Assembly (NCBI GenBank): GCA_937872095.1
Contig: CALMNW010000076.1
Coordinates: forward strand, 62,001-126,000
Origin: an uncultured Verrucomicrobiota bacterium
GTDB taxonomy: Bacteria > Verrucomicrobiota > Kiritimatiellia > CAIQIC01 > Lenti-01
Length of the DNA: 64,000 bases
Direction of reading: 5' to 3'
Position numbers and translations under genes: made by a program. This document shows positions 10,223 through 63,789 of the stretch, one piece after another (within the stretch, counting starts at the first letter, position 1; the number at the start of each line of letters is the position of its first letter). The notes under the pieces are model-generated. The model saw nothing but the letters and a program-made list of their open reading frames with translations. It was not told where the DNA came from and did no database searches.

Positions 10223-11980
10223 CTAGCTCGGATCGGGCGCGGGCAACAGATCGGAGGTCTGCGGTTCCACGAGAACCGCGTCGTAGCCGTCGTCTTTGGG
10301 AATCAACCGGTACAAGAGGGCTTTGCCGGCCTTGCGGTGGTAGCGGTACAGATACGCGCTGCGCTCGGGATGGCGGCGCATCAAGTCGGCGTTTTGCTCG
10401 CGGTAATTCCGCACGTAGAGGACATCGCCCTCCAGATCGAGGCGGTTCCGCAGGAATCCGGTGGCGAAGTAGTCGTTGGTGTCGTCTTCTTCGTCTTCGA
10501 TCCCGAGGCAATCCATGAACACGATGGCGTTGGCGATGCCGTAGTCCCGCACCACGCGCGGCAGCACGTCTTCCACGTCGTAGTAGCTCTGGTCGTAGCG
10601 CTGGAAATGGAACGGCGTGCTCACCGCGAGGAACAAGGTGCCCGAGACGGCCAGAAACGCGGGCACCCGCGCGAACACGCGCCGGCGGTCGCCGGCCTCC
10701 CGCAAGACCAACAGGCCGCGCGCGGCCAGGAGAACCAGATACGGCGTCGCGGCCGTGATGTAGCGCGCGGGAACGCAGATTTCGTAATACCAATAGCACG
10801 CATAGGTCGCCAGCAGCGCCGGCAGCGGCAACAGCAGCAGGGTTTCCTTCGTGCGCGCGCGGCCCAGCAGGAACGGCAGCAAAACCACGGCCAGCGCGGG
10901 CCACGGCCAGCCCAGCAAGTTGTCGTTCAGCGCCCGCAAGCGCTTGTAGGTGTGTTCGATTCCGAGTTCGGGCGTATGGGCGCGGCGCGGCGTCAATTGC
11001 ACAAACCCGAATTTGCCCCAGCGGCCCATGCCGATTTCGTGGCCGGGCGTCCGCCAATCCCCCGTCGTGATTTGCTGGAAGCCCAGCAGCGCGCCGATGG
11101 CCAGCAGCGCCGCCGCCAAGCCGGCCGCGATGCCCAGCCGGCAGCGCCACAGCCGTTTTACGGGAAACAGGAAAGCCAGCGCGAAGAGCAGGCCCAGCAC
11201 CGCGGCATCCAACGGCCGGCACAAAAGGGCGACGCCCCAGGCCAGGCCCGCCGCGCCGCCCCAGATCCAGCGCTCCGTGGCCCAGAGCCGGCGCAAGCTC
11301 AACAAGGCCAGGCACAGGAACAACGTGGACGGAATATGCGAAAGATGCAGCCCGGACAGCACGACCATGAACGGCGAGGGAATCGCCAGCAGCGCCGCGA
11401 TCCGCCCGGTGCGATCGGCGAACAAATCGCGGCCCAGTTCCGCGATCGCCACCACCAGCAGCGCGCCGAGGAGCGGGTTGATCAGCCAAGACGCGCCCAG
11501 CCAAACGCCCGGAACCAACAGGGCCGGCCAACCGGGCGGATACATTCCGCACCAGTGTCCCAACGCCTGCCGTTTCCCCAAAATGCCGAAAATCTGGCAA
11601 AACCCGGCATCCGCGGGCAACGGCAGGGTGATCGCGCCGCTCGCGAACAGCCTGGCTTGGAACAAAGACGCCATGCCGTCGTCGAGCCGGGGAATTCCCT
11701 TGAACAAGAACCAGGCGACGCCCGCGTACGCCAGGAAGGCCACGGCGAACACGCCGAGATTGAACCGGGCGCGCGGCACGCGGCAGAGCCAATCGAAGCG
11801 CCGCCCCAGCCAGGCGCGGGAACGGCCGTGGGCCACCGCCGCGAACGCCAGCAGCAGCACCAGCGCCGTCCAGCCCGGATGCGCCAGAACGGCGGAATGC
11901 AGCGGAACGCCTTGCCCCGACAGAAACACGTACGCCAGCGCGGCGCCCAATGCCGCCACCCACCAATTTGTCTTGTTCAT
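10223..11980 (-). CDS. Multi-TM glycosyltransferase-39-like membrane protein
   Basis: MNKTNWWVAALGAALAYVFLSG...FLFKGIPRLDDGMASLFQARLFASGAITLP...; ATG at 11980, upstream extension in the ORF track rejected. Confidence 0.65.
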   Translation of the reverse strand: MNKTNWWVAALGAALAYVFLSGQGVPLHSAVLAHPGWTALVLLLAFAAVAHGRSRAWLGRRFDWLCRVPRARFNLGVFAVAFLAYAGVAWFLFKGIPRLDDGMASLFQARLFASGAITLPLPADAGFCQIFGILGKRQALGHWCGMYPPGWPALLVPGVWLGASWLINPLLGALLVVAIAELGRDLFADRTGRIAALLAIPSPFMVVLSGLHLSHIPSTLFLCLALLSLRRLWATERWIWGGAAGLAWGVALLCRPLDAAVLGLLFALAFLFPVKRLWRCRLGIAAGLAAALLAIGALLGFQQITTGDWRTPGHEIGMGRWGKFGFVQLTPRRAHTPELGIEHTYKRLRALNDNLLGWPWPALAVVLLPFLLGRARTKETLLLLPLPALLATYACYWYYEICVPARYITAATPYLVLLAARGLLVLREAGDRRRVFARVPAFLAVSGTLFLAVSTPFHFQRYDQSYYDVEDVLPRVVRDYGIANAIVFMDCLGIEDEEDDTNDYFATGFLRNRLDLEGDVLYVRNYREQNADLMRRHPERSAYLYRYHRKAGKALLYRLIPKDDGYDAVLVEPQTSDLLPAPDPS

Positions 11981-19730: not shown

Positions 19731-19802
19731 TTTTCCACAGTGTGGAAAAATCCCCCCCGATTTTTCCACGGCGTGGAAAACTTTTTTCCATAGCGTGGAA
19801 AA
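19731..19802. repeat. Cluster of three 19-bp odd palindromes upstream of alaS
   Basis: TTTTCCACAGTGTGGAAAA (19731-19749), TTTTCCACGGCGTGGAAAA (19762-19780), TTTTCCATAGCGTGGAAAA (19784-19802); start-to-start 31 and 22 bp. Confidence 0.9.
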
Positions 19803-19817: not shown

Positions 19818-22457
19818 ATGATGACCTCATCCGAAATCCGCCAGTCGTTCCTCGACTTCTTCGCCTCGAAGCAGCACGAGATCGTGCCTTCGTCGCCCGT
19901 CGTCCTGCCGACCGACCCCACCCTGCTCTTCGCCAACGCCGGCATGAACCAGTTCAAGGAAATCTTCCTCGGCGCCCGCAAGTCGTCCTGGAAGCGCGTC
20001 GCCGACACCCAGAAGTGCATCCGCGTCTCCGGCAAGCACAACGACCTCGAGGAAGTCGGCCGCGACACCTATCACCACACCTTCTTCGAAATGCTCGGCA
20101 ACTGGTCCTTCGGCGACTACTACAAGCGCGAAGCCATCACCTGGGCCTGGGAACTCCTGACGGAAGTCTGGAAAATGCCCAAGAACCGCCTCTGGGTCAC
20201 CGTCTACACCACCGACGACGAAGCCGCCGAGATCTGGCGCACCTGCACCGACGTCGATCCCGCCCACATCCTGCGTTTCGGCGAGAAAGACAACTTCTGG
20301 GAAATGGGCGAGACCGGCCCCTGCGGCCCCTGCTCGGAAATCCACTTCGACCTGACCCCCAACGGCTGCACCGCCGACATGGTCAACGCCGGCACGCCCC
20401 AGGTCATCGAGATCTGGAACAACGTCTTCATGCAGTACAACCGCAAGTCCGACGGCACCCTCGACGAGCTGCCGGCCAAGTGCGTGGACACCGGCATGGG
20501 TTTCGAGCGCGTCGTCGCCGTCATCCAGGGCAAGACCTCCAACTACGACACCGACGTCTTCATGCCGCTCATCGACGCCGTCGCCCAGCTCTCCGGCAAA
20601 CCCTACCTCCAAGACGAAACGGCCGTGGCCATGCGGGTCATCGCCGACCATCTGCGCGCGCTGTCCTTCGCCATCGCGGACGGCGTCATGCCGTCCAACG
20701 ACGGCCGCGGCTACGTCCTGCGCCGCCTGCTGCGCCGCGCCGCGCGCTACGGCCGCAACATCGGCCTCGTGAAACCCTTCCTCTGCAAGCTGTTCCCCGT
20801 CCTCGAAAAGCAGATGGGGCCGTTCTTCCCCGAACTCGTCGCTCGCCGCGAAGAAATCGTCCGCGCCCTGCGCGCCGAGGAAGAATCCTTCGCCGCCACC
20901 CTCGACCGCGGCATCGCGCTCTTCGACGAAACCGTCGCCGAACTGAAGCAAGCCGACGCCTCCGTCTTCCCCGGCGAGCAGGCCTTCAAGCTCTACGATA
21001 CCTACGGCTTCCCCTTCGACTTGACCGTCCTCATGGCCGCCGAAAAGGGCCTCGACGTCGACCAGCCCGCGTTCGACCGTTGCATGGACGAACAGCGCGC
21101 CCGCGCCCGCGCCGCCCGCAAGGACGGCACCGCCGCCGAAAACGACCTCGTCGCCCATTTCGTCGAACAGGGCATCCAATCCGCGTTCACGGGCTACACC
21201 TCGCTCTCCAACGGCACCGAGATCGTCGCCATCCTTTCCGGCGGCCAGCTCGTCGATTCCCTCGCCGAAGGCCAGAGCGGCGAAATCCTGCTGAAGCAAA
21301 CCCCCTTCTACGCCGAGTCCGGCGGCCAGGTCGGCGATACCGGCGTCATCACCACCTGCGCCGGCGCGCGATTCGAAGTCGCCGACACCAAGAAGCCCGC
21401 GCAAGGCATCCTGCTCCACAAGGGCAAACTGGCCAAAGGCGCGCTGGCCAAAGGCGCCGCCGTGATCGCGACGGTCGACGAAGCCCGCCGCGCGGCGATC
21501 AAGCGCCACCACACCGCCACGCACCTGCTCAACGCCGCGCTGCGCAAGGTGCTCGCGACCGATTCCATCAAGCAGGCCGGCTCCTACGTCGCCCCCGACC
21601 GCCTGCGCTTCGACTTCACCTGGTTCGAGGCCCTCACCGCCGAGCAGATCGCCGCCCTCGAGCGCCTCGTCACCGAATACGTCGTCGCCAACGTCCCCGT
21701 CAAAACCTACGAAATGGCCCTCAAGGACGTGCCCGGCTCCGGCATCATCGCCGTCTTCGACGAGAAATACGGCGACACGGTCCGCGTCGTGGACACCGAA
21801 GGCATCTCGCGCGAACTGTGCGGCGGCACCCACGTCGAGCGCAGCGGCGACATCGGCCCCTTCCGCATCCTCGCCGAAACCTCCATCGCCGCCGGCGTGC
21901 GCCGCATCGAAGCCCAGACCGGTCTCGTCGCCTGCGAACACACGGTCCAGGAACATTCCATCCTGGCGGCCCTGGCCCAGCGGCTGTCCATCGGCGCCGC
22001 CGATCTGCCCGCGCGCGTCGAAGCCCTCCTCGAACAAACCCAGAAGCTCGAGAAGGAAATCGAAGCCGCCGCCGAAAAGAACGCCCTCGAAAAGGGCGCG
22101 GCCTTGGCGAACCAGTTCGCGCCCGTCGGCGGCATCCCGGTCCTGGTCGAATCCGTCGGCGAGCTCGCCGCCGATCCCCTGCGCGCGCTGGTCGAAAGCC
22201 TGCGCAAGCAGACCCCCGAGAGCGTCATCCTGCTGGCGGCCGTGGCCGACGGCAAGATCACCTTCATCCTGAACGCGGGCCCGGCGGCGCAGGCCAAAGG
22301 CGTGAACGCCGGCAAGCTCGTCGGCGCCGTCGCCAAGATCGCGGGCGGCGGCGGCGGCGGCAAGCCCGACAAGGCCCAGGCCGGCGGCAAGGATCCCGCC
22401 AAGCTGCCCGAAGCCCTCGCCGCCGCGCGCGAGATGATCGCCCAGGCCCTCGCCTGA
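19818..22457 (+). CDS. alaS: Alanine--tRNA ligase
   Basis: MMTSSEIRQSFLDFFASKQHEIVPSSPVVLPTDPTLLFANAGMNQFKEIFLG...GRGYVLRRLLRRAARYGR...RHHTATHLLNAALR...CGGTHVERSGDIGPFRI. Confidence 0.97.
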   Translation: MMTSSEIRQSFLDFFASKQHEIVPSSPVVLPTDPTLLFANAGMNQFKEIFLGARKSSWKRVADTQKCIRVSGKHNDLEEVGRDTYHHTFFEMLGNWSFGDYYKREAITWAWELLTEVWKMPKNRLWVTVYTTDDEAAEIWRTCTDVDPAHILRFGEKDNFWEMGETGPCGPCSEIHFDLTPNGCTADMVNAGTPQVIEIWNNVFMQYNRKSDGTLDELPAKCVDTGMGFERVVAVIQGKTSNYDTDVFMPLIDAVAQLSGKPYLQDETAVAMRVIADHLRALSFAIADGVMPSNDGRGYVLRRLLRRAARYGRNIGLVKPFLCKLFPVLEKQMGPFFPELVARREEIVRALRAEEESFAATLDRGIALFDETVAELKQADASVFPGEQAFKLYDTYGFPFDLTVLMAAEKGLDVDQPAFDRCMDEQRARARAARKDGTAAENDLVAHFVEQGIQSAFTGYTSLSNGTEIVAILSGGQLVDSLAEGQSGEILLKQTPFYAESGGQVGDTGVITTCAGARFEVADTKKPAQGILLHKGKLAKGALAKGAAVIATVDEARRAAIKRHHTATHLLNAALRKVLATDSIKQAGSYVAPDRLRFDFTWFEALTAEQIAALERLVTEYVVANVPVKTYEMALKDVPGSGIIAVFDEKYGDTVRVVDTEGISRELCGGTHVERSGDIGPFRILAETSIAAGVRRIEAQTGLVACEHTVQEHSILAALAQRLSIGAADLPARVEALLEQTQKLEKEIEAAAEKNALEKGAALANQFAPVGGIPVLVESVGELAADPLRALVESLRKQTPESVILLAAVADGKITFILNAGPAAQAKGVNAGKLVGAVAKIAGGGGGGKPDKAQAGGKDPAKLPEALAAAREMIAQALA

Positions 22458-32373: not shown

Positions 32374-32414
32374 GTTTCCACGCCATGGAAAAACTATTTC
32401 CTCGGCGCGGAAAA
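32374..32414. repeat. Pair of degenerate 19-bp odd palindromes
   Basis: GTTTCCACGCCATGGAAAA (32374-32392) and ATTTCCTCGGCGCGGAAAA (32396-32414), 22 bp start-to-start with 3-nt spacer. Confidence 0.7.
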
Positions 32415-48691: not shown

Positions 48692-49168
48692 ATGAACGAC
48701 GACGGTTTCACCTTCTTGCCCGGGGGCGCGCGCGTGTCGAAAGCCGACGCGCGGATGGATGCGCTGGGAGCGCTGGACGAGCTTGGCGCGGCGCTGGGAT
48801 TGCTGAAGGTCGCGCGGGCCGGAACCCCCGACGCGGCGCTCGTCGAAACCATGCAGCGCGATTTGTGGCGCATCGGCGGGGAACTGGCGACGGGCCAGCC
48901 CGCCTTGGGGCCGGACGCCGTCGCGGCGCTGGAGGGCGAGATCGCGCGGCGGACCGCGGGGCTGCCGCCGCTGCGCGAGTTCGTCTTGCCGGGCGCGTCC
49001 GAACCCTCGGCGCGGGCGCATCTGGCGCGCGCGGTCTGCCGCCGGGCGGAACGCGAACTCGTCCGCGTCCGGGCAACCCATCCGGAGATCGTCTTTCCTC
49101 CGGCCCTGGCCTATCTCAATCGGCTGTCCGCCTGGCTGTTCGCCGTGGCGCGGACGCCGGAGGCCTAG
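48692..49168 (+). CDS. Cob(I)yrinic acid a,c-diamide adenosyltransferase (PduO type)
   Basis: ADARMDALGALDELGAALGLLK...LREFVLPGASEPSARAHLARAVCRRAERELV...YLNRLSAWLFAVAR. Confidence 0.85.
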   Translation: MNDDGFTFLPGGARVSKADARMDALGALDELGAALGLLKVARAGTPDAALVETMQRDLWRIGGELATGQPALGPDAVAALEGEIARRTAGLPPLREFVLPGASEPSARAHLARAVCRRAERELVRVRATHPEIVFPPALAYLNRLSAWLFAVARTPEA

Positions 49169-49177
49169 CGTCCGGAG

Positions 49178-49281
49178 TTTTACGTAGAACGTAAAAACTT
49201 TCGGCGATTTTTCCACGCTACGTAAAAACTTTGGCCGATTTTTCCACACCGTGGAAAACTTTTTTTCCACGCCGTGGAAAA
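49178..49281. repeat. Cluster of four 19-bp odd palindromes
   Basis: TTTTACGTAGAACGTAAAA (49178), TTTTCCACGCTACGTAAAA (49209), TTTTCCACACCGTGGAAAA (49240), TTTTCCACGCCGTGGAAAA (49263); spacing 31, 31, 23. Confidence 0.9.
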
Positions 49282-49298
49282 CCGCGGAGGGGCAAAGA

Positions 49299-49328
49299 AA
49301 AGGGCCGTCCGGCAACGGACGGCCCTTT
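49299..49328 (-). terminator. Terminator hairpin downstream of the porin gene
   Basis: AAAGGGCCGTCC-GGCAAC-GGACGGCCCTTT; T-rich on the minus strand after the stem. Confidence 0.75.
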
Positions 49329-49349
49329 CCGCAGCGCGCGGGGCGCGAA

Positions 49350-50525
49350 TCAGAACGCGTACTTCATGGCGACCTGGACGCGGTCGTTGACGGCGTCTTC
49401 GCCGCCCATGTAGTCGGTCGTCATGTGGGCGTATTCGGCCATGGCCGTGACGGCGGGGGTCAGCTTGTAGGCGACGTTCCCGAAGATCTGCTGGTTCTTG
49501 GAAGGCCGGCCATCGGCGAGATCTTCGTCTTCCGGATCGTCCACGGAGTAGCCGAGGCCGATGGAGATCTTGTCGGTGGGGTCGATGAGCAGCTGGGCCC
49601 AGCCGCCCTGGGCTTCGATTTCCTCGCCGAGGGCGACGTTGACGCCCTGGCCGATGCCGCCGAAGTAGGTGTCGAGGTTGACGCCCTTCCAGAGGTTGCC
49701 CTGCACGGCGATTTGCTTGGTCAGAGGCAGGAAGATGGAGCCCTGCATGGACCAGGTGTCGTAGTCCTGCGCATCCGCGGCGACGATCACCTTGTTGCTA
49801 TCGACGCCATCGACCGTTTCCTGGCCGTAGTGGCCGCCGAAGGCGATCTTGGCGGACTTTTCGGTCCAGAGCTTCTGCATCAGGGCGACGCTCCACTGGA
49901 CGGTCGGCCAATCGGAATCGGCGCCGTCTTCGAAGGTCCCGCCGTCGAGATCTTCGCCGACGGTCTGGGCGGCGGCGACCTTGGCCACGAGCTTGGTGTC
50001 TTCGGCGATCTTCAGCTCCTGGGTGAGGCGAGCCTGGGGCCGGCGGAGGCCGAGGGCGCCGATGTCCGCCAGGTAGGCGAAGTTGACGATGCGGGGCACG
50101 ACTTCGCAGAAGGTGTCCCAGTCCTGGCCGAAGCGCAGGGAGAGGCCCGAGGAATGGGCCAGGTCGAGGTAGGCCAGGCGCATGCGGGGGTTATAGGAAT
50201 TGGCCTTGTCGCCGCCGTAGAAGTCCATTTCGAACTTGCCGGTGGTTTTCCAGCTGCCGGAATCCGGGCCGAACAGGTTCAGGCCGAGGCGGCTTTCGCG
50301 GGCGCCGAAGTGGGTCTGGGCGTCTTTTTCGCCGTTCAGTTCGGGCAGGACGAAGAAGGCGAAATCGCCTTTGGGCGCGGTGGCCTGCGTGTCGTGCGAC
50401 ACGTCGGCGCGGAGATAGCCGTAGATCTGCAGGCGCATGCCGGCATCCGGCAGGGTGACTTCCACCGCGAGGGCCGGTACGGAGCAACAAACGACGAGGG
50501 CCAGGGCAATCCAACTCTTTCTCAT
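49350..50525 (-). CDS. Outer-membrane porin-like beta-barrel protein
   Basis: Signal peptide ...VVCCSVPALA; IYGYLRADVSHDTQAT...ESRLGLNLFGPDSGSWKTTGKFEMDFYGG...; terminal VQVAMKYAF. Confidence 0.75.
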   Translation of the reverse strand: MRKSWIALALVVCCSVPALAVEVTLPDAGMRLQIYGYLRADVSHDTQATAPKGDFAFFVLPELNGEKDAQTHFGARESRLGLNLFGPDSGSWKTTGKFEMDFYGGDKANSYNPRMRLAYLDLAHSSGLSLRFGQDWDTFCEVVPRIVNFAYLADIGALGLRRPQARLTQELKIAEDTKLVAKVAAAQTVGEDLDGGTFEDGADSDWPTVQWSVALMQKLWTEKSAKIAFGGHYGQETVDGVDSNKVIVAADAQDYDTWSMQGSIFLPLTKQIAVQGNLWKGVNLDTYFGGIGQGVNVALGEEIEAQGGWAQLLIDPTDKISIGLGYSVDDPEDEDLADGRPSKNQQIFGNVAYKLTPAVTAMAEYAHMTTDYMGGEDAVNDRVQVAMKYAF

Positions 50526-59149: not shown

Positions 59150-61084
59150 ATGAAAAACACCTGGATGACCTTCGGCTTGGCCACCCTTTTGGCGCAATCG
59201 GCAGTTGCGGAACCGGAGACCAAGATCGGGGAAGTCAACGGCGTCGTTTCGATGGAAGCCGAGAGCTACACGTCGCAATCGGGCTATGCCCGCTATGCGA
59301 ACGGCGACGCGTCGGGAGCGGCGGTGATGCGGGCGGACGGGGCCGACAACAGCAGCTTGAATTTCCAATTCACGGTTCAGCAAGCCGGCACGTGGTACGT
59401 CTGGATCCGCGCCTACGCCACGGCCGACGTCAACAACGGCTATCGGCTGGGCTTGGACAATGCGGTTTTGGGGGAGATCTACCTGAAGAAAATCGGCTGG
59501 AGCTGGCTGCCGGAATGGCTGAACGGCGAGAGCCACGCGAGTCCGGTCACCATCACCCTGACGGCCGGAAGCCACGTGCTGAAAATCCTCAAGCGAAAGA
59601 TCGAAAATCCGCTGATCGACAAGATCGTGCTGACCCGGACCGCCGAAGCGCCGACGGGCTACGGACCGGCCCCCACGGGGCTCGTTCCGGCGGCGTTGGC
59701 CATCAGCCCGGCCAGCGCGGCCATTCCCTTCGGCGGCGCGACCGGCCGCCGGATCGCCGTTGCCGCCAACGTGCCGTGGACGGCCACGGCCAGCGCGGCG
59801 TGGATCCGGATCGTCTCCGGCGCGGCGGGAGCGACCAACGGAACCGTGACCTACAACGTCGCCGCCAATACGGGCGGCGCGCGCTCCGGCACCCTCGCGG
59901 TTTCCGGCGGCGGCCTCACCCGGGTTTTCACGATCAGCCAAAGCGCCGCGACGATCTTGACCCTCGCTCCCGCCAGCACGTGGGCCCCCGGCGCCGGGGC
60001 GAACGGCCGGCAGATTTCGATCGTCGCCAACGCGACCTGGACCGCGACGATCGACGATCCGTGGATTTCCGTGGCGTCGTTCGCCTGGGGCCCCGCCACG
60101 ACCAAGATGACGTTCGACGTCCTGCCGAACGCCGGCCGGGCCTTCCGCACGGGCACCGTCACGGTTTCCGGCGGCGGCCTCGTCCGGACGCACAAGGTGA
60201 ACCAGTGGCCGCGCCCCACCCATCCGCGCGTGTCGGCCGACGGGGACGTCGACGGGGATTTCGAGGCGGACGTCGCCGTCTTCCATCCGGCGTCGGGCAC
60301 GTGGAACCTGCTGTTCAGCACCGGCGCCCGCGCGACCCTGCATTTCGGCTGGAGCGAGACCTTGCCCGTCCCGGCGGACTACGACGGCGACGGCATGGCG
60401 GATTTCGCCGTGTACCATCCCGCCACCGGCAACTGGCACTTCTTCTATAGCTCAGGCGGAGCCCGCACGATCCAGTTCGGCTGGCGCGAAACCGTGCCCG
60501 TGCCGGGCGACTACGACGGCGACGGCAAGGCGGATCTGGCCGTCTACCATCCCGCGGAGGGGCGCTGGTATTTCCTGTGCAGCGCGGCCGGACGCTACAG
60601 CGTGAAATGGGGCTGGTCGACGACCGTGCCCGTCCCGGCCGATTACGACGGCGACGGCGCGACCGACGTCGGCGTCTACCATCCCGCCACGGGCAATTGG
60701 AGCATTCTGCCCTCGTCCTTCCCGGCCATCGGTCCGATCCAGGTGCAATGGGGCTGGTCGGAAGCGGTGCCGGTGCCCGCGGACTACAACGGCGACGGCA
60801 AGGCCGACTTCGCCGTCTTCCACCGGGCGACCGGAAACTGGCACGTCTCCTACTCCGGCGGCGGCACGGCCACGCAGCAGTTCGGCTGGCAATCCACGGT
60901 GCCGGTCCCGGCGGACTACGACGGCGACGGCGCCGCCGATTGGGCCGTCTACCATCCCGCGACCGGCGATTGGCACGTCCTCAAATCGACCACCGGGGGC
61001 ATTCGGGTGCAGAACTGGGGCTGGAGCACGGCGACGCCCACCCTGCTCTATCCGCTGATCCATGCCTGGTTCGATCTGCCCTGA
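59150..61084 (+). CDS. Secreted protein: carbohydrate-binding-like N-terminus, two BACON-like domains, six FG-GAP/VCBS-like repeats
   Basis: MKNTWMTFGLATLLAQSAVAEPETKIGEVNGVVSMEAESYTSQ...; W-T-A-T-A-S-A-A-W-I-R-I (BACON pattern); DYDGDGMADFAVYHPATGNWHF repeats. Confidence 0.8.
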   Translation: MKNTWMTFGLATLLAQSAVAEPETKIGEVNGVVSMEAESYTSQSGYARYANGDASGAAVMRADGADNSSLNFQFTVQQAGTWYVWIRAYATADVNNGYRLGLDNAVLGEIYLKKIGWSWLPEWLNGESHASPVTITLTAGSHVLKILKRKIENPLIDKIVLTRTAEAPTGYGPAPTGLVPAALAISPASAAIPFGGATGRRIAVAANVPWTATASAAWIRIVSGAAGATNGTVTYNVAANTGGARSGTLAVSGGGLTRVFTISQSAATILTLAPASTWAPGAGANGRQISIVANATWTATIDDPWISVASFAWGPATTKMTFDVLPNAGRAFRTGTVTVSGGGLVRTHKVNQWPRPTHPRVSADGDVDGDFEADVAVFHPASGTWNLLFSTGARATLHFGWSETLPVPADYDGDGMADFAVYHPATGNWHFFYSSGGARTIQFGWRETVPVPGDYDGDGKADLAVYHPAEGRWYFLCSAAGRYSVKWGWSTTVPVPADYDGDGATDVGVYHPATGNWSILPSSFPAIGPIQVQWGWSEAVPVPADYNGDGKADFAVFHRATGNWHVSYSGGGTATQQFGWQSTVPVPADYDGDGAADWAVYHPATGDWHVLKSTTGGIRVQNWGWSTATPTLLYPLIHAWFDLP

Positions 61085-61281
61085 GCCGAATTATCTCTTC
61101 GCAACGAAAATCGACCGAACCCCCATTGGCCAGACGGGGTTGCGCCCTTTCCTCGCCATCCATCTCCCCGGCAGGGCAAATTAAACCTTTTTATTCCCGG
61201 CCGGATAGGTTAGCCAAAATAAAACCCTTCCGGGAAAAACTGCAGCGCGACATGACCGAACCTGAAACGAAACGAGAGAAC

Positions 61282-63555
61282 ATGAATTTGAACCGGCGGT
61301 TAAAACGACTCCTTTTCGCCGCCGCGACGTATCTCGGCCTGACGATGGCCGGCACGGCCGCCACGTACGTGCGGTGCGCCATCCTGCAGTTCAACGAGCA
61401 CTATCCCGACGAAGTGACGATCGATGCCGATCGCCTGGCGGCCCAAATCCGCCAAGCGGCGAACAACGGCGCCAAAATCATCGTGGCGCCCGAAAATTGC
61501 CTCTATCGATACGAGCCGTGGTCCCAAAACGGAGTGACCCAAGACCAGTTGGCCGCCTATTTCAATCCAATGGTCGCGAAATTTTCGGCGCTCGCGGCCG
61601 AGTTGAAGGTCTGCCTCGTCATCGGATTGCGCGAACCGTCGGGCCTGCCCAAATCCATTTACCAAAGCGCCGTGTTCCTGGGCCCGGACGGCTCGTTGCT
61701 CAAAAAATACCGCAAACGCGTTCCGTCCGGCGCGGAAGATAATTTCACCGAGCCCGGAGGAGACGACTTCACCCCCTTCCAAACGCCCTACGGCAAAGTC
61801 TGGATGCAGATTTGCAAGGACATGGATGGCGACCTGTATACCTATGGCATGCCCACCGACATCGATCTCTTCATCGGCCTCAGCAAGGATCCCTCTCTGG
61901 GTTGGGCCAAGGTCGTGGGCGGGTGCCAGAAGGCCCGCTGCTACGGCATCGGTTCGAACTGGGGCACGGGGGGGAACAGCGGATTCGTGAATCCCTCCGG
62001 CGGCGTCGTAGCGGCGGCCGGGGTCGGGGAAACGATCCTCTACGCGAACCTGCCCCTGCCGTTTCTGTCGCCCGATGCCTACGAGCCGGACGATTCCATC
62101 TCCGCGGCCAAATCGATCGGCAACGGCCAGACGCAGTCCCGGTCCATCCACGTGGCCGGCGATACGGATTGGGCGAAGTTCGTCGTGGGCGCCAGCGGCG
62201 CGCGCAACGTGCGGATCGAGACCGCCGGCGCGAGCGGCGACACCCAGCTGTGGCTGTGCCGGGCAAACGGCACGCTGGTCGCCTTCGACGACAACGGCGG
62301 CGGCGGCGCCTTCTCGCTCATCGCGCTTTCTTCCCTGCCGGCCGGAACCTATTACGTCAAGATCCGGGATTACGGAAACAACGGCACGATTCCGGCCTAC
62401 ACCCTGAAGGCCAGCTGGACCGTCGACCGCCTCGCGGTCAGCCCAACGACCATCAATGTCCCGGCGACCATGGGGGACCGGGCGATTTCGGTTTCCGCCA
62501 ACGTCGCGTGGACGGCGGCGGCCAATCAACCGTGGATCACGATTATGGGCGGCGCAAAGGGTACCGGCAGCGGAACGGTGACCTACCGCGTGGCGGCCAA
62601 TGCCGACGTGGTCCGTTCGGGCACGATCACGGTTGCGGGCGGAGGACTCAGCCGCACCTTCACGGTAAACCAATGGCCGGAGCCGACGATGCCGGGCGTC
62701 ACGGCCCGGGGCGACATCGACGGCGACGGCAAGGCGGACCCGACGGTTTTCCATCCCGAATCGGGAAACTGGCACATCTCCTTCAGCACGGGAGCCCAGT
62801 GGATCGTGCCGTGGGGCTGGTCGGCGACGATACCGGTGGCCGCGGACTACGACGGCGACGGCATGCGCGGCTTCGGCGCGTACCATCCGGCCACCGGCAA
62901 CTGGCATATCCAGGAAAGCGGCAAGATTCGAACCCGAACCGTCCAGTTCGGCTGGAGCGAGACCGTGCCGTTGCCGGGCGACTACGACGGCGACGGCAAG
63001 GCGGATCTGGCGGTCTTCCATCAAAAAACGGGGCGCTGGTACTTTCTATGCACGACGGCGGGACGCTACAGCGTAAAATGGGGCTGGGCGACGACGATTC
63101 CCGTGCCGGCGGACTACGACGGCGACGGGGTCATCGACGTCGCCGTCTATCATCCCGCTTCCGGCCAGTGGAGCATTTTGCCTTCTTCCTTCCCGGCCAT
63201 CGGTCCGATCCAAAAGCAGTGGGGCTGGAGTTCGGCGGTGCCCGTGCCGGCGGACTACGACAGCGACGGCAAGGCGGACATCGCCGTCTTCCATCGGGCA
63301 AGCGGCACGTGGCACGTCTCCTACTCGGGCGGCGGCAGCCTGACCAAGTCCTTCGGCTGGTCCGCGACGACCCCCGTGGCGGCGGACTACGACGGCGACG
63401 GCGCCGCCGATCTGGCCGTCTACCATCCCGACTTCGGCAACTGGCACATCCTCAAATCGACCACCGGCAGCTCCATCTTGAAAAATTGGGGCTGGAGTTC
63501 GGCGAAACCGAAGCTCCTGAACACCCTGATCCATTCCTGGTTCGACTTGCCTTGA
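61282..63555 (+). CDS. Secreted carbon-nitrogen hydrolase fused to PPC, BACON-like and FG-GAP-like repeats
   Basis: Signal-like N-terminus; nitrilase triad E (IIVAPENCLYR), K (LLKKYRKRVPS), C (VWMQICKDMDGD); PPC domain DAYEPDDSISAAKSI...DTDWAKF; six DYDGDG repeats. ATG at 61252 is an alternative start. Confidence 0.8.
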   Translation: MNLNRRLKRLLFAAATYLGLTMAGTAATYVRCAILQFNEHYPDEVTIDADRLAAQIRQAANNGAKIIVAPENCLYRYEPWSQNGVTQDQLAAYFNPMVAKFSALAAELKVCLVIGLREPSGLPKSIYQSAVFLGPDGSLLKKYRKRVPSGAEDNFTEPGGDDFTPFQTPYGKVWMQICKDMDGDLYTYGMPTDIDLFIGLSKDPSLGWAKVVGGCQKARCYGIGSNWGTGGNSGFVNPSGGVVAAAGVGETILYANLPLPFLSPDAYEPDDSISAAKSIGNGQTQSRSIHVAGDTDWAKFVVGASGARNVRIETAGASGDTQLWLCRANGTLVAFDDNGGGGAFSLIALSSLPAGTYYVKIRDYGNNGTIPAYTLKASWTVDRLAVSPTTINVPATMGDRAISVSANVAWTAAANQPWITIMGGAKGTGSGTVTYRVAANADVVRSGTITVAGGGLSRTFTVNQWPEPTMPGVTARGDIDGDGKADPTVFHPESGNWHISFSTGAQWIVPWGWSATIPVAADYDGDGMRGFGAYHPATGNWHIQESGKIRTRTVQFGWSETVPLPGDYDGDGKADLAVFHQKTGRWYFLCTTAGRYSVKWGWATTIPVPADYDGDGVIDVAVYHPASGQWSILPSSFPAIGPIQKQWGWSSAVPVPADYDSDGKADIAVFHRASGTWHVSYSGGGSLTKSFGWSATTPVAADYDGDGAADLAVYHPDFGNWHILKSTTGSSILKNWGWSSAKPKLLNTLIHSWFDLP

Positions 63556-63789
63556 GCCGGCTCCGGCCGCGTCCCTGTCCAAAAGCCCATTCCTTCCGCT
63601 CCCGATGCGCCCGGGCGGCTTGCGCACGCGTTCTTTCGCTTTGAAGATTGACAGGGCTTGGGCCGCCAATGAATATGCCCCCCTGCAAAACGCGGACAGG
63701 CGGCAGGCGCAAGCGACGCGATCTTTCCGCACGGCAAAACTCGCCGGCTTTCGTTCCATCGGGCCGGACCACATCAAAGGACGACGCAG

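Follow-up and report, generated by a model that had tools for sequence, protein, structure and literature searches.

Helically phased palindrome arrays with two half-site types in Kiritimatiellota, candidate sites for a dimeric DNA-binding protein

The window analysed in this study, a stretch of 64,000 nucleotides, comes from a genome of 3.33 Mb in 102 contigs (G000; related genomes are given by number in the same way). In the gap that separates a cobalamin adenosyltransferase gene from a convergent porin gene, it carries four 19-mer palindromes, which, as read from the letters, begin at 49178, 49209, 49240 and 49263 (spacings 31, 31 and 23). The first lies 9 nt beyond the cobalamin adenosyltransferase stop codon. 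The features of this locus and of the other palindrome-bearing sites of the window are:

48692..49168, + strand, cobalamin adenosyltransferase gene adjoining the array (Pfam PF01923, E 6.7e-41)
49178..49196, palindrome 1, TTTTACGTAGAACGTAAAA, ACGT/ACGT type with core AGA and an ACTTT flank on the right; an exact family member
49197..49208, 12-nt spacer ACTTTCGGCGAT, consisting of ACTTT (flank of an ACGT half), variable bases and GAT (flank of a CCAC half)
49209..49227, palindrome 2, TTTTCCACGCTACGTAAAA, CCAC/ACGT hybrid with core GCT; among the 101 exact hybrids of the genome, no RNA hairpin
49228..49239, 12-nt spacer ACTTTGGCCGAT
49240..49258, palindrome 3, TTTTCCACACCGTGGAAAA, CCAC/GTGG type with core ACC
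49263..49281, palindrome 4, TTTTCCACGCCGTGGAAAA, CCAC/GTGG type with core GCC, 23 bp from palindrome 3
49298..49329, terminator-like GC-rich hairpin with A/T tracts, separate from the palindromes, between the array and the 3' end of the porin gene
49350..50525, - strand, neighbouring convergent porin gene (Pfam PF13609, E 5.6e-10)
19731..19802, second array of the window, which occupies the gap upstream of alaS, with CCAC types at 19731, 19762 and 19784 (spacings 31 and 22)
19818..22457, + strand, alaS
32374..32414, remnant of two copies, weak and decayed, with spacing 22 and with 2 and 3 mismatches

The window contains six matches to the CCAC motif at no more than two mismatches, compared to 0.01 expected from dinucleotide shuffles. 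Exact pattern counts over the whole genome gave 136 CCAC/GTGG, 33 ACGT/ACGT and 101 hybrid palindromes, while reversed-pattern controls gave zero matches. A chance origin of the window array and of the genomic family is therefore excluded, and the four 19-mers and their spacings, as first described in a sequence-only reading of the locus, are real. Further statistics for this genome are drawn from sampled stretches totalling ~0.86 Mb. Many of its contigs (C10, C12, C13, C14, C36, C75, C89 and others) start or end in palindrome arrays, within the first 40-350 bases; since the assembly breaks at arrays, the true copy number is probably above the count. Elsewhere in the window, positions 60144-63559 hold a likely repeat-protein gene pair with large internal duplications (two copies of ~300 nt, 2471 bp apart and 71-83% identical), whose 132-141 bp sub-repeats encode DYDGDG-like motifs.

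The genome is a mosaic of CCAC and ACGT words. With a pooled ACGT-half frequency of 0.309, independent arms would yield 129 CCAC/GTGG, 115 hybrid and 26 ACGT/ACGT copies, compared to the 136, 101 and 33 observed (chi-square 4.18; one-sided permutation P ~0.03 for so few hybrids). The pairing of arms is thus near random. The sequence-only reading had proposed that both arms changed together in palindrome 1, so that palindromy itself appeared to be maintained, a view to be refuted if covariation over all genomic copies were no better than random drift; within this genome the near-random pairing refutes it. Hybrids constitute more than a third (37%) of the exact copies, with both half-sites exact, and in the sampled stretches they were not more decayed than CCAC/GTGG copies (26 exact versus 3 one-mismatch hybrids; 47 versus 17). 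The two symmetric types fold with energies of -6.9 and -4.5 kcal/mol as RNA (z -3.4 and -2.5) and -5.6 and -5.2 as DNA, compared to 0 and -0.9, respectively, for the hybrid. Because hybrids keep both halves exact yet cannot fold, the conserved unit is the half-site, and not the arm pairing or the hairpin. The pattern previously noticed in the 12-nt spacers calls for a correction: it consists of half-site flanks, ACTTT beside an ACGT half and GAT/ATC beside a CCAC half, placed around ~4 variable bases.

The surroundings of the arrays were examined with a simple home-made gene caller, and the following intergenic fractions and orientations are therefore approximate. Most arrays were intergenic (in G000, G017 and G020, 8 of 90 were called genic), and they occurred in every gene arrangement, often only tens of bases from stop or start codons. 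Such positions, together with the folding of the symmetric copies, would suit hairpins acting in transcription termination or in the protection or regulation of mRNA. We nevertheless consider an RNA-level function improbable: over a third of the exact copies fail to fold as RNA, divergent and convergent gene pairs alike have arrays between them, Rfam contained no match to the palindromes, and mismatched pairs showed no wobble preference in the sense strand (41 G.T, i.e. G.U in RNA, versus 43 A.C, pooled). Nor did directional arrays show a strand preference, their orientation relative to genes being inconsistent. An intrinsic terminator, i.e. a GC-rich stem followed by a U-tract, was rejected specifically, as the stem has T4 at its start and A4 at its end whichever strand is read, the reverse of terminator polarity, and the array between the cobalamin adenosyltransferase and porin genes is already adjoined by a separate terminator-like hairpin.

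Palindromes of the CCAC type are present in most genomes of the family to which G000 belongs, while relatives from the same order, in two genera-level groups, carry TTTTCCAAnnnTTGGAAAA (CCAA type) instead; the maximum was 718 matches to TTTTCCAnnnnnTGGAAAA in one same-order genome. Among 56 genomes, only G000 (33) and its sister G006 (150) had exact ACGT/ACGT palindromes, with none in the 54 other relatives; to the earlier question whether the TTTTACGT variant forms its own subfamily, the answer is that it does. G006 contains 150 ACGT palindromes, 8 of the CCAC type and no exact hybrids; its ACGT halves are flanked by AAAGT, and the units within an array are co-oriented. Between species, both arms shift together: CCAC prevails in the family of G000, CCAA in the related families, and ACGT almost exclusively in G006. 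The compensatory arm change is therefore wrong inside G000 and right only between lineages, and the maintenance of palindromy likewise holds at the lineage level, where the prevailing motif of each species is symmetric, but not within G000. It should be noted that a symmetric lineage-level motif is expected if a symmetric protein dimer binds double-stranded DNA, and is not evidence of compensatory base-pairing. The distribution suggests, but does not prove, a changed preferred motif in the G000/G006 sub-lineage.

When 84,980 species genomes were scanned for pairs of such palindromes separated by 11-13 bp, at least 80 records were returned. The sources among the matches listed were MAGs of Kiritimatiellae, Lentisphaerae, Verrucomicrobia, Spartobacteria or Opitutia, or uncultured bacteria; JAFXQI010000095.1 (Kiritimatiellae bacterium RGIG6649) was among the array-bearing contigs. 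Similar DNA was not found in phage and plasmid records. The sole match in a viral collection, IMG/VR contig IMGVR_UViG_3300035698_006241 (L236:3427-3500), has three CCAA-type palindromes at intervals of ~31 bp; they lie within a small ORF whose translation resembles an HTH protein of the phage-repressor type.

Spacing was surveyed for neighbouring palindromes up to 80 bp apart in unbiased stretches of four genomes. The centre-to-centre distance was 22-23 bp (31 pairs) or 29-33 bp (150 pairs) in 181 of 183 cases, corresponding to two and three helical turns, the remaining two being 43 and 63 bp. The individual values, with the number of pairs in brackets, were (i) 22 (30), 23 (1), 30 (5), 31 (42) and 43 (1) in G000, (ii) 29 (1), 31 (35), 32 (14), 33 (1) and 63 (1) in G017, (iii) 30 (1), 31 (3), 32 (15) and 33 (1) in G020, and (iv) 31 (28) and 32 (4) in G006. 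The G017 spacers are nearly unrelated to one another (pairwise identity 0.30, compared to 0.26 when shuffled and 0.82 for the arms), yet the spacing stays locked at 31-32 bp, which argues that recent tandem copying is not a sufficient explanation of it in this genome. Flanks are conserved in G000 and G006, where only ~4-7 middle spacer bases vary, so copying contributes there and partly accounts for these flanks and for the shared orientation of units, seen in 38 of 39 arrays. The idea that hybrids merely mark where units of a 31-bp tandem duplication join was dropped as the sole cause, since hybrids also occur at array ends and beside 22-bp spacings, and number 101. The CCAA-type spacers of G017 and related genomes (L111-L124) have GC-rich middles (G or C at column 6 in 33 and at column 7 in 30 of 35) and edges leaning towards A/T, but are otherwise unrelated.

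Comparison of orthologous loci revealed turnover. The array of the cobalamin-porin gap is missing from G001 and G015, both of which have the terminator-like hairpin at 49298-49329, and in G006 two ACGT palindromes lie just past the stop codon of the cobalamin gene, where G000 has four copies. The array in the alaS leader is common to G000, G001, G009, G011 and G012, i.e. to several genera, and is absent in G013 and G016. Since arrays have been lost from some relatives at both loci, single arrays are dispensable. An intact sugar nucleotidyltransferase ORF (L109:10728-11471, contig C42 of G000) contains four in-frame palindromes (array 11076-11168) in a loop region; the same gene carries one to six palindromes in seven relatives, always in frame, and none in G013 and G011. 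Here one DNA word is kept in all three reading frames (FSTVWK, VFHSVE, FPQCGK) in several genomes, while elsewhere in the gene the array-bearing relatives keep the third base in 49-76% of conserved codons. The 67 proteins encoded downstream of arrays in other genomes comprised diverse housekeeping functions, with no dominant class.

This turnover, including the in-frame insertion of variable copy number, is what would be expected if a transposase amplified and inserted the arrays, the palindromes being kept only as its recognition sites or through the youth of the copies. A selfish element of the REP/BIME/MITE kind, which we consider rather unlikely, is also favoured by the flank conservation and co-oriented units of G000 and G006, by the mostly intergenic location, and by Y1 transposases in 16 of 17 genomes of the family. 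However, flank matches were no better than those of shuffled pairs in three genomes, i.e. there was no signal of target-site duplication, and the Y1 genes are not flanked by palindromes (five palindromes in 90.6 kb, at 2 of 30 loci). Their number does not track the palindromes either: G000 has two Y1 genes and ~270 palindromes, and G004 has 17 and 151. Moreover, hybrids are unable to form the hairpin used by RAYT-type enzymes, and the G017 spacing stays at helical multiples despite diverged spacers. Membership of the RAYT/REP families was rejected on the lack of palindromes around Y1 genes and on two further grounds. No tag of the GTAG/CGTC type is found at the palindrome end, the half-site flanks showing only AAAGT or GAT preferences, and the stem-loop is formed by the symmetric copies but not by the 101 hybrids (RNA MFE 0). 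The palindromes do share with REP sequences a high copy number, dispersal and a mostly extragenic location.

A second repeat of ~100 bp (AGCCGAGTGCCGAGCC...) was observed inside or beside palindrome arrays in three genomes (L043:15968-16083, L093:1447-1563, L077:823-932, L067:1355-1472, L316:13787-13897 and L307:1413-1516). In some copies it apparently interrupts a palindrome at one and the same point, and it may represent an array-targeting element.

The spacing of the arrays also recalls proteins of the Lrp/AsnC type, whose octamers contact sites ~30-32 bp apart, a centre-to-centre distance found in the arrays. BarR-type Lrp proteins recognize 15-bp semi-palindromic sites separated by spacers of 15-17 bp, with the DNA wrapped around the octamer (PMC10201364), and one or two proteins with an Lrp/AsnC domain are encoded in 54 of 56 relatives. 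Yet an Lrp/AsnC gene is equally common in palindrome-free relatives, and the N-terminal helix-turn-helix of the G006 Lrp protein shows no distinctive change compared to CCAC-bearing sisters, though three of the four inner bases of the motif are different. The Lrp candidate was rejected because neither its distribution nor its DNA-reading helix coevolves with the motif, and we allow the corresponding explanation only a slim chance. The binding protein was not found among the candidates examined (Y1/RAYT and Lrp/AsnC).

Taken together, the most likely reading, to which we give roughly even odds, is that the arrays are helically phased, double-stranded sites for a putative symmetric, dimeric, sequence-specific DNA-binding protein of Kiritimatiellota. 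The REP-like selfish element is the main rival, and the two are not mutually exclusive. Under the dimeric-protein reading, each 19-mer would pair two half-sites (TTTTCCAC or TTTTACGT) in inverted orientation, their starts one helical turn apart, and neighbouring dimers would lie on one face of the DNA, two (22 bp) or three (31-32 bp) turns apart, a placement that would make cooperative binding possible. The arrays lie scattered, for the most part between functionally unrelated genes, and like REP elements they come and go and become longer or shorter from one species to the next. A nucleoid-organizing or general DNA-architecture role would be a better fit than a specific regulon. The preferred half-site would have drifted by lineage, being CCAC in the family of G000, CCAA in related families and ACGT in G006, with both CCAC and ACGT words freely combined in G000.

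A tentative extension, which we regard as possible but doubtful, is that a motif switch is in progress: an ancestor would have had TTTTCCAC at hundreds of places, G006 would have moved almost wholly to TTTTACGT, and G000, with its 101 heterotypic sites, would be intermediate, the reader being either one protein of relaxed specificity or two heterodimerizing paralogues. The alaS CCAC array fits such a switch: G000 and G001 have it intact, but in G006 it has decayed.

If the dimeric-protein reading is right, the arrays represent an order-wide system of chromosomal sites in a poorly studied phylum, for which nothing relevant was found in the open papers searched on such palindromes in Verrucomicrobia, Kiritimatiellota or Pontiella. 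Natural species would then carry different versions of the site, one genome being a mosaic, and the joint change of a DNA-binding protein and its hundreds of sites would become testable. Even if the arrays are selfish repeats, the pairing-deficient hybrids with intact halves argue for recognition of half-sites in double-stranded DNA.

Several known systems offer points of comparison. In ParB/parS, Noc/NBS and MatP/matS, many dispersed short palindromic sites serve one dimeric protein; the sites described here are similarly numerous, dispersed, short and palindromic, but are longer, have a 3-bp core and form tandem phased arrays, and their ligand is putative. The operator arrays of Lrp/AsnC proteins such as BarR (PMC10201364) are similar in having semi-palindromic sites that share one helix face and have a centre-to-centre distance of ~31 bp. 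In contrast to them, the arrays described here are far more numerous and stand beside unrelated housekeeping genes, and the Lrp protein, though universal, does not coevolve with the motif. With REP/BIME sequences (GTAG- or CGTC-tagged and RAYT-associated) the palindromes have in common their short length, the hundreds of dispersed, mostly intergenic copies found singly or in small arrays, and a content that varies among related species. Unlike REP/BIME sequences, they have no tetranucleotide tag at array ends and do not flank Y1 transposases, include hairpin-deficient hybrids, and are spaced at intervals locked to whole helical turns.
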